Positions 61,208 through 64,000 of a DNA stretch of 64,000 nucleotides are shown one piece after another. Both the position numbers and the translations under genes were made by a program. The stretch is from positions 28,696 to 92,695 of IMG/VR virus record IMGVR_UViG_3300020125_000159; one strand, written 5' to 3'. Within the stretch, counting starts at the first letter, position 1; each line of letters opens with the position of its first letter. Origin of the DNA: a virus. The notes beneath the pieces were generated by a model, which saw only the letters and a program-made list of their open reading frames with translations, had not been told where the DNA came from and did not search any database.

Positions 61208-61311
61208 CTCGAAAGATATAAGACACTTTCTCGTTTAACATTTTGTTTAACTACTTTCCATTCTTTTCCAGTCCAAATCTCTTCTGTGAATCTTGTTAGG
61301 CGTTCAGTCAT
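61168..61311 (-). CDS. Possible small protein antisense to 61040 gene, 47 aa
   Basis: A good start context follows the inverted repeat at 61311, and the first half has a regular pattern (RFTEEIWTGKEWKVVKQ). The 3' end overlaps the convergent gene by 40 nt. Confidence 0.35.
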   Translation of the reverse strand: MTERLTRFTEEIWTGKEWKVVKQNVKRESVLYLSSQSSPLLRSVSNI

Positions 61312-61329
61312 TACCTACATTATAGGTAA
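61311..61329. promoter_or_regulatory. Operator-like inverted repeat TTACCTA-5-TAGGTAA
   Basis: Perfect 7-bp arms with a 5-bp spacer lie at the start of the minus-strand small gene. The same half sites appear at other accessory promoters and upstream of the methyltransferase. Confidence 0.5.
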
Positions 61330-61418
61330 ACTAGGCGTCTTATAAAGGCATTTATACGTTACCTAAATTAGTGTTTAATGACTTGCTGGGGACTCGAAAC
61401 ACCTCTTCTGTCGTGCTT

Positions 61419-63695
61419 CTAGAGTTGGATGGGTTGTTTAATGTTAACTAATCTAGCTTGGGCGATTGCAGCGTACTCGGACGATATTTCTATTCCAATT
61501 CCTTTTCTATTCAGCATGTCGGCAGCTATCATTGTCGTTCCCGAACCACAGAATGGATCTAGAATTGTATCGCCTTCTCTACTGCCTAGCATTATGAGAT
61601 ATGAACACAACTTGATAGGCTTTATTGTTGGATGACTGTTAAATCTTGGCGTTTCTCCTCTCTGGAATGGATTATCAATTGGTGTTTGCCGTCCATCATT
61701 TACTTTCTTTGGTTCAAAATATGAATCGATTAGGCCCATGTTCCGCTCACGTTTCGAAGGCTTAGGTGTGATGATAAAAGGGAATGTTGTTTCGAACCAC
61801 TTATCAAGCGAGAAAAATCTGCTGAAATCATTACCTAATATAGAATCAGATATACAAACATTCGCAGGAAAGCGGCCTTTTTGATCTGGTGAGAATTTGA
61901 ATAATATATCTGATTTCTTAAGAACAGTAGGCTTTCTATCACCTTGCTGTACTTTTAATTGATTCCACGTATGTAGACCGCTTTGTTCACTTTCTGAATA
62001 TCCTGAACTAATCGCATCGTCTTCATTCTGATAGGGAATCCTACAATCATCAAGCCATGTAATGCCTTTACGATTCGCTAATGCTTGGTCAACATAGGAT
62101 TTCTCGCTGAGTGGTCGCATACATACCAAGCAGATTTCTAGAGCTGGTTTAAACTGAGCTCCGCAGTACGCGCCGTCTAGGGCTTTGGCCTGTTCGGTTG
62201 CCGATACTGTTAATCTATGATCTTCTCTGCGTCCTATTTTATACCACGTTGAGCCGCTTCTTTCTTTTCCGTCTGGTGCTTTATACCTTCCAATGATTTC
62301 TCTCTCTGCTTCTTCTCTTTCTATCAATTCGTCAAAGCGGTTATCTAGACCGAACAATGTCTTTAATTTCTTATAAATTTCTAACGATGGTAATAAGAAT
62401 CGGTGATTCAATTTATCGCCTAAGAGATCAGAAGCGAAATTGCCGCCTTTAATGGAATATCCTAAATATTCATTTATGTCCTTAAATGTCAATCCTTTTT
62501 CGGCGCGTTTCTGATTGATATATTCTCTAAATTCAGGATTGTATGTTTTACCGTTTCTTTTGTCGGCAAGCTTTGAGATTGAAGCAGCTTTTGGGAACCC
62601 TGAATTTCCTGTCAGAAATATCTTACCATTTCGGCGCGCCACAAAACAACCCGTCGAAACAGTAGGACAGAATACTAAGCCTTCATAATATTCTCTGCTA
62701 ACAGTGGCCAGAGTGGTTTTATAAGATTTGGGAAATGTTCGTATTTCTTGTGATGTTGGTTGCTCGCAAATAACATAAGATTGTTGAGATTGTTGTTGGT
62801 TGGATCGTGATCCATATGATGAACCACTTCCATTCTTAATAATGGCCTGCCTATCGCCATGGCTACTAATATTCTGTGTTCCATTACATAACCATCCTTC
62901 CTTGCCATGGATTTGTACTCCATGGGGCAGCGAATGTATTTTACGCCAACATAATTTCCCTTTGTTTTGAAATATGTTACGCCACCTTTCCAAGCACGAT
63001 TCTTTTCGCCCATCATTGCTTCTCGTTGTCTCTGTTTCTGTGCTTCGGACATTTTGTGAATATGTTTGCCGCTTGCTAGAAGACCTTTCCAGATATTTAC
63101 CTTCTGTCTGCAACTTGCCGAACAATATATTCCCATGGCTCCTCTGCCCTTTCTTCTTGTCATAGAACGAAACATTAGAAATGGATTCTTGCAATGTTGG
63201 CAAAGCCCCCAAATAAGGCACACTGATCTTTTGTTCGAGTGTTTCTGCGAATTGGAATAATATTCTTCCTTCTGATTCAACAAGGCAACGGTGGTTTCTG
63301 GTGACGATTTGATCTGTGTAATCTGATTTAATTCGGTAAACGGTATCTTTGATTTGATTATATTCTTCCCATTTGGTCGGACTTTCAAAATGATATTCGT
63401 CATTGCTTATAGAATATACAAGTATCTCCTTACCTTTAAATGCTATGGTGTTACGGTAGCGTTCCCACCCATCTTTGGTAAACACTTCTGTATCTTCTGA
63501 CAAACAAGCATACGTCCAATAAATAGAAGAAAATCCTGTTTCAAATCCTGCATCTTGAAGATTGACAATCATTCTCGACAACACGTCCTGACGTGGGGAG
63601 GACATGATAAAGGCGAATGCACCTGGCTTTAGGACTCGTAAACACTCTTTCCATGTCGAAGTAGGAATAACAACTTTATCCCAGTTTTTATTCAT
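61419..63695 (-). CDS. Beta-class DNA methyltransferase interrupted by an intein, 758 aa precursor
   Basis: The extein has RVLKPGAFAFIM near the N-terminus, IYWTYA-SGFPKA at the intein site, a central recognition region, and a C-terminal AdoMet motif DPFCGSGTTMIAADML. Order (catalytic then AdoMet motif) is of the beta class, N6-adenine or N4-cytosine type. Motif IV (DPPY) lies upstream in another frame (see 63696-63834), so the true start or reading frame is disturbed. Intein excision would leave about 457 residues. Likely protects viral DNA or regulates. Confidence 0.8.
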   Translation of the reverse strand: MNKNWDKVVIPTSTWKECLRVLKPGAFAFIMSSPRQDVLSRMIVNLQDAGFETGFSSIYWTYACLSEDTEVFTKDGWERYRNTIAFKGKEILVYSISNDEYHFESPTKWEEYNQIKDTVYRIKSDYTDQIVTRNHRCLVESEGRILFQFAETLEQKISVPYLGALPTLQESISNVSFYDKKKGQRSHGNILFGKLQTEGKYLERSSSKRQTYSQNVRSTETETTRSNDGRKESCLERWRNIFQNKGKLCWRKIHSLPHGVQIHGKEGWLCNGTQNISSHGDRQAIIKNGSGSSYGSRSNQQQSQQSYVICEQPTSQEIRTFPKSYKTTLATVSREYYEGLVFCPTVSTGCFVARRNGKIFLTGNSGFPKAASISKLADKRNGKTYNPEFREYINQKRAEKGLTFKDINEYLGYSIKGGNFASDLLGDKLNHRFLLPSLEIYKKLKTLFGLDNRFDELIEREEAEREIIGRYKAPDGKERSGSTWYKIGRREDHRLTVSATEQAKALDGAYCGAQFKPALEICLVCMRPLSEKSYVDQALANRKGITWLDDCRIPYQNEDDAISSGYSESEQSGLHTWNQLKVQQGDRKPTVLKKSDILFKFSPDQKGRFPANVCISDSILGNDFSRFFSLDKWFETTFPFIITPKPSKRERNMGLIDSYFEPKKVNDGRQTPIDNPFQRGETPRFNSHPTIKPIKLCSYLIMLGSREGDTILDPFCGSGTTMIAADMLNRKGIGIEISSEYAAIAQARLVNIKQPIQL
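62604..63506 (-). other. Intein, 301 codons, in methyltransferase
   Basis: It begins with Cys (CLSEDTEVFTKDGW, block A), has TRNHRCLV (block B, His72), and ends with VARRNGKIFLTGN (blocks F/G) before Ser+1. Penultimate Gly replaces the common His, known in functional inteins. The splicing parts are residues 1 to about 115 and about 270 to 301. The middle is low-complexity in this frame because it overlaps an HNH gene in the +1 frame. Confidence 0.85.
62675..63403 (-). CDS. HNH homing endonuclease nested out of frame in the intein, up to 242 aa
   Basis: In the +1 frame relative to the intein lies a zinc-ribbon (CQHCKNPF, CSASCRQK), a linker and the HNH core VVHHMDHDPTNNNLNNLMLF. An ATG at 63403 opens the frame, but recognisable sequence begins near a GTG at 63223, which is a plausible start. 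The gene ends inside the intein. It would cut an intein-free methyltransferase allele. Both frames are open for about 180 codons. Confidence 0.8.
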   Translation of the reverse strand: MTNIILKVRPNGKNIIKSKIPFTELNQITQIKSSPETTVALLNQKEEYYSNSQKHSNKRSVCLIWGLCQHCKNPFLMFRSMTRRKGRGAMGIYCSASCRQKVNIWKGLLASGKHIHKMSEAQKQRQREAMMGEKNRAWKGGVTYFKTKGNYVGVKYIRCPMEYKSMARKDGYVMEHRILVAMAIGRPLLRMEVVHHMDHDPTNNNLNNLMLFASNQHHKKYEHFPNLIKPLWPLLAENIMKA

Positions 63696-63834
63696 GAAGG
63701 AATAGCCGTACGCGGTAAGGTGGATCAGTCACCATGCAATCTATACTATCGTTTGGCAGTGGTATATGATTTGCATCACCGTGAATGATTCCACCTATTC
63801 CCCCATCACCTCCATATTTAATACGTTAATTCAT
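63696..63834 (-). pseudogene. Out-of-frame N-terminal piece of the methyltransferase
   Basis: The frame encodes IIHGDANHIPLP and MVTDPPY (motif IV). Removing 7 nt (63708-63714, where GTA is duplicated around CGCG) joins DPPY directly to GYSFMNKNWDK of the main frame. An in-frame stop also follows the only ATG (63834) after two codons. The gene may be broken, or the sequence may contain errors. Confidence 0.5.
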
Positions 63835-63840
63835 AAGTTT

Positions 63841-63860
63841 ACCTAATATAAAAATAAATC
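63841..63860 (-). promoter_or_regulatory. TATA box with TTAGGTAA half site, methyltransferase promoter
   Basis: On the minus strand TTTTTATATTAGGTAAAC lies just upstream of the ATG at 63834, combining a TATA-like box and one arm of the recurring inverted repeat. Confidence 0.4.
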
Positions 63861-64000
63861 TGATCGCGTGATTTTGGGGAATCTATCACATGATTATCCG
63901 TTTTCTAAAGTCGAGTGTGCTAGTCGAAAGACTGGGGGATCTGGGGCGCTTATAGATTCGTAATAAATCAGCGGTCATTCTTACGGTTAAAATAAATAAA
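63861..64000. other. Right end of window, no gene seen
   Basis: I see no coding frame or RNA gene here; a short AGTC...GACT inverted repeat lies near 63911-63935. Confidence 0.4.

Follow-up and report, generated by a model that had tools for sequence, protein, structure and literature searches.

An intein in a phage DNA methylase family whose HNH endonuclease is very probably encoded by a separate overlapping gene

Inteins are usually described as single polypeptides with a splicing and an endonuclease domain. In ordinary bifunctional inteins, a Hint splicing domain and a homing endonuclease are combined in one element and the endonuclease is in frame. One such case in a phage DNA methylase is the Dorothy_75 intein of mycobacteriophages, which carries a LAGLIDADG endonuclease (PMC9957025). 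Out-of-frame HNH sequences hidden in phage methylases have also been published. The ShiLan domain is an out-of-frame HNH in mycobacteriophage DNA methylases without detectable splicing motifs (PMC11855218; also PMC9957025), and Pacc40 gp60 is a phage methylase with an out-of-frame HNH-like insert for which no splicing domain was reported (PMC11855218).

The element described here resembles each of these in part. Like the bifunctional inteins, it holds both a Hint splicing domain and a homing endonuclease, but here a second, overlapping gene encodes the endonuclease, in the +1 frame in 64 of 64 members of the family. It shares with the Dorothy_75-type intein the kind of gene, the identical site (G/C ... 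TGN/SGFPKS, slashes marking the junctions) and homologous ends, and differs in that LAGLIDADG is fused in frame there, while an HNH endonuclease occupies a separate overlapping frame here. Both it and the ShiLan domain are out-of-frame, homing-type HNH insertions in phage methylases with the host frame left open and a patchy distribution, and their HNH cores are distantly similar (E 6e-5). However, the ShiLan domain lacks intein motifs, lies at another site (KPYG ... NTAFEPI) and has its HNH in +2 (our own translation) instead of +1; on these three grounds the present layout is new with respect to ShiLan. The Pacc40 gp60 insert differs in HNH family and in site, by the paper's description. The nearest solved intein by profile and fold is the AceL NrdHF intein (PDB 6zgq), which is split and of class 3, whereas the present one has Cys1 and is contiguous. 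Phage methylases with HNH genes hidden out of frame are thus already in the literature; what is new, and widespread, is an intein whose endonuclease is an overlapping gene. No intein with an out-of-frame HNH is described in the literature searched, although an earlier report, for example among the non-canonical inteins of actinophages (Gosselin et al. 2025), is possible.

The window, meaning the whole 64,000-nucleotide stretch that was analysed, is the final 64 kb of a viral record of 92,695 bp. All of its features given below lie on the minus strand. The host gene, comprising extein and intein, is an N4/N6 DNA methylase ORF of 758 stop-free codons (61419..63695; Pfam N6_N4_Mtase 2e-25). It is interrupted between the WxYG and SGFPKS motifs, as in the Dorothy_75 allele (...IYWTYA/C...N/SGFPKAAS), by a 301-aa intein (62604..63506) that runs from Cys1 (63504-63506) to Asn301 (62604-62606) and is followed by Ser+1 (SGFPKA). 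The extein seems to include a repressor-like helix-turn-helix stretch (62250-62560, residues 379-473; PHROG 3, E 0.095), and similar stretches were observed in Dorothy and Atcoo. The DPPY-bearing 5' part of the methylase is upstream of the ORF, in a different frame. In relatives, three residues separate DPPY from the FM motif; the window copy changes frame there, with a break immediately 3' of DPPY and extra bases compared with the spacing in relatives (63700-63830). A stop codon also follows the likely start almost directly, and the contig ends within ~200 bases. This copy of the methylase may therefore be decayed or mis-assembled at the contig end, which concerns the copy and not the family.

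The initial annotation proposed that a complete splicing domain interrupts the methylase, and its four signature residues were all found at 62604-63506. Cys1, the terminal Asn and Ser+1 (Cys1 ... TGN/S) are kept in 42 of 42 non-redundant relatives, and the (T/S)xxH of block B is present, with an invariant His72 and T or S at position 69 (alignment A5). In the same alignment two residues close to the C-terminus, Cys280 and Thr299, never vary, although Cys1 is invariant as well; we take their positions to be reminiscent of the class 3 intein triad. The best structural match of the intein is a class 3 intein. A penultimate His is usual, not universal, in inteins; all members have Gly at this position, as do the Dorothy-type inteins. 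The N-terminal splicing domain (63213..63506; blocks A and B) and the C-terminal one (62604..62726; VFCPTVSTGCFVARRNGKIFLTGN) both show wobble in the intein frame. AlphaFold2 placed residues 1-100 and 261-300 at pLDDT ~90 or more (above 90 in the C-terminal domain) and residues 114-244 below 50, so that the predicted structure is an ordered Hint splicing fold joined by disordered filler (62775..63167). The top Foldseek matches of this model were inteins (6zgq, 7cfv, 9hth; probability 1.0, E 7e-5 to 8e-4), and the intein HMM matched 6zgq among PDB sequences (E 1e-7). The match to TIGR01445 (intein_Nterm) was weak (E 0.07 for the window).

In the +1 frame of the intein lies an HNH endonuclease ORF of 242 aa (62675..63403, stop codon at 62675-62677), which matches Pfam HNH_3 (E 6e-7) and several PHROG HNH families (E to 4.5e-16). 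Its core (62738..62992; WKGGVTY ... EVVHHMDHDPTNNNLNNLMLF ... HKKYE) is predicted at pLDDT above 90. The putative catalytic residues H195, N204 and H218 are invariant in alignment A6, as are the four zinc-ribbon cysteines C68, C71, C94 and C98 (63108..63202). The HNH model gave no useful match in Foldseek, nor did the HNH profile match any PDB chain. The initial annotation had placed the HNH in the +1 frame of exactly the low-complexity filler. The frame and the HNH identity hold, but the overlap extends beyond the filler: the ORF also covers the latter half of the N-terminal splicing domain on one side and runs into the C-terminal domain on the other. What was taken for low-complexity filler is nothing but the HNH gene translated in the wrong frame.

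Relatives in IMG/VR were recovered by profile searches, single-sequence searches having returned none. LR756508.1, an independently assembled huge phage genome of 484 kb, carries an intein at the same site and, in its +1 frame, an HNH with 42% identity to that of the window over the matched part. An HNH profile built from two sequences identified 75 IMG/VR loci and 6 MAG loci. Among the loci with HNH-core matches, 47, counting the window and LR756508.1, carry both the N-terminal and the C-terminal splicing domain in a single open frame, with the HNH in +1. Further elements were added by searches with an intein profile and with a profile of the splicing domains only; the latter is the less biased census of endonuclease types. 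It returned 53 HNH in +1, 14 in-frame LAGLIDADG (two of these first filed under 'other' and assigned by eye), one case with the HNH deleted in frame and 8 unclassified, and no HNH in frame or in +2. All searches pooled gave at least 64 distinct elements from viral contigs and MAGs, all 64 with the HNH in +1 and one open intein frame.

Several individual alleles were observed beside these. The HNH-deleted case of the census (L174) is on the same contig as L144, where the HNH core is deleted in frame, leaving a 199-aa intein with a zinc-ribbon remnant in +1 (L144:2221-2817). A nearly bare mini-intein without endonuclease occupies the same site in L147 (3001-3432), with one stop near its start in that contig. 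Two hidden HNH genes per methylase ORF occur in L009, L014, L031, L034, L039 and L080; in these six, the intein HNH is in +1 and the second is further downstream in +1 or +2.

The initial annotation considered the open intein frame improbable by chance and a sign of selection, and both points were borne out. Expected stops were obtained by shuffling synonymous HNH codons, which keeps the protein and the codon usage. Over the 172 HNH codons of the window downstream of the N-terminal splicing domain, there are 0 stops in the intein frame as compared to 11.5 expected, and none of 20,000 shuffles was stop-free. Frequent stops in the filler frame of relatives, named beforehand as evidence to the contrary, were looked for in the 64 elements: 13,221 codons contained 0 with 627 expected. 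Defining the intein class by one open frame partly conditions this count, but the loci had initially been picked up through their HNH similarity only, and 32 of the other 33 HNH loci have that frame open as well. Before AA, AG or GA, the third position of HNH codons is never T (0/1858), compared with 1584/4589 elsewhere. In five non-nested HNH controls (four annotated free-standing relatives and L040), observed over expected stops were 25/21.4, 33/31.6, 17/18.1, 4/5.3 and 18/16.7. The synonymous shuffles and these five relatives reject chance openness through amino-acid or codon bias. In L040 (2616-4754), the HNH lies antisense to an interrupted methylase; of the related loci, this one alone has a shifted frame full of stops.

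In the intein-embedded members, codon-position variability is highest at the third position of intein codons in 63505-63250 and again in 62719-62604, and at the third position of HNH codons in the stretch that separates them; variation in the filler is mostly at intein codon position 1. The wobble thus switches frames at the predicted borders, and the filler is conserved as HNH protein, its conservation in the intein frame being limited to the absence of stops. In the C-terminal domain the intein frame is under strong constraint (position differences 0.21, 0.11 and 0.64). Where intein block B overlaps the HNH N-terminus (63260..63355), 4-fold third-position diversity in the intein frame drops to 0.29, versus 0.63-0.73 outside the overlap. 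The HNH is thus already constrained there, and its start should be upstream.

The reading that we consider very probable is that this phage DNA methylase carries an intein and that the homing endonuclease of the intein is no in-frame domain but has a separate gene overlapping it. A ribosome in the methylase frame would traverse the whole element and yield a precursor protein, in which residues 1-~100 and ~261-301 would fold as the Hint splicing domain, tethered by a disordered nonsense linker of ~150 residues. The motifs and fold suggest that the intein would then be excised and the methylase joined. A second ribosome would initiate in +1 within the DNA that codes for the intein, to give a free-standing zinc-ribbon HNH endonuclease. 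This enzyme is expected to cut intein-free methylase alleles at or near G/SGFPKS, with repair copying the whole element. Selection maintains coding in the HNH frame and the absence of stops in the intein frame. Splicing, HNH translation and DNA cleavage are in each case what we infer from sequence and predicted structure.

Of the alternatives, the one that survives best, and still an unlikely one, is that programmed +1 ribosomal frameshifting, instead of internal initiation, joins the endonuclease to the N-terminal half of the intein in a fusion protein. It would fit the constraint on the HNH frame already within the N-terminal splicing domain, and the HNH frame opens well upstream in most members. 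However, an in-frame ATG is conserved: 23 of 42 elements have it in the alignment column that holds intein residue 49, and about half of these ATGs (11 of the 23) have a Shine-Dalgarno match at 4-13 nt, versus a background of 15% at other positions. In L039, moreover, the HNH ORF opens just 14 codons before the zinc ribbon. The candidate ATG of the window is earlier (63401..63403), and a Shine-Dalgarno match is absent 4-13 nt upstream of it. From these counts internal initiation is likely for the family, and for the window copy, given its start, it is presumed.

It is considerably less probable that the insert is never spliced and is a tolerated methylase loop like the ShiLan domain, its intein motifs being relics. 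Related HNH genes do lie in methylases that have no splicing motifs and whose frame has stayed open. The same HNH family occurs directly, in +1, in methylases that have no intein (L036, L033, L056, L083, L049, L046 and others), mostly between SGFPKS and GTALKPA. The 33 HNH loci without intein matches were considered as free-standing genes, and this was rejected, as they lie in +1 inside the methylase, where the shifted frame is part of the methylase itself and is open in 32 of 33. These intein-free loci are a second, ShiLan-like class, but with another site and register. Against an unspliced loop in the intein-bearing members stand the catalytic ends (Cys1, His72, Asn and Ser+1), which are kept in all aligned members, the strong intein-frame constraint on the C-terminal domain and the predicted Hint fold.

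Two further explanations are extremely improbable. Two compensating indels, as an assembly or sequencing artefact that shifted an ordinary in-frame HNH domain, might be suspected from the nearby frame break at the DPPY motif; judged from relatives, the paired frameshift is refuted as a general explanation, since 64 distinct elements, assembled separately from different metagenomes, and LR756508.1 all share a single register. The existence of at least 64 distinct relatives with this exact two-in-one layout indicates that selection holds both readings open and that the layout is no sequencing fluke. A group I intron with an HNH ORF would be a familiar arrangement, HNH genes being common in phage group I introns, but no Rfam match at E<=1, and so no conserved ribozyme core, was found in 61300-64000, the host frame is uninterrupted and intein motifs are present.

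The overlapping-gene intein also shows signs of mobility. Identities between L005 and L012 are 46% for the extein, 73% for the intein and 85% for the HNH, and between L078 and L079 they are 73%, 98% and 95%. In many pairs the identity of the element is greater than that of the host gene, and extein and element identity are correlated at r ~0.3, so that the phylogeny of the element is partly decoupled from that of the host gene. Element versus host-gene identity was used likewise as a mobility criterion in PMC9957025. The HNH tree is poorly resolved, and its intein and direct labels need at least 4 changes.

As to origin, we favour an endonuclease gene that invaded an intein over the reverse, because in-frame LAGLIDADG alleles occupy the same site, because a nearly bare mini-intein exists (L147) and because the same HNH family sits directly in intein-free methylases. 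A more tentative idea, to which we give somewhat less than even weight, is that the HNH element is 'frame-transparent', with one stop-free shifted frame as a portable property. Such an element could pass from inteins to bare methylase sites or back, in every case overlapping in +1 and without killing the host ORF. In the intein form, two genes translated independently of each other would share one stretch of DNA in a stable partnership, favoured by selection since splicing does away with the cost of insertion.

In this family, the splicing and endonuclease functions of an intein reside in overlapping genes, and many phage lineages have conserved this layout. The family offers a natural example of strong selection on two frames and brings its own controls, namely the non-nested HNH relatives, the LAGLIDADG allele at the same site and the HNH-deleted allele. 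How an endonuclease gene joins an intein becomes testable, as does why ORF-based annotation misses such genes.
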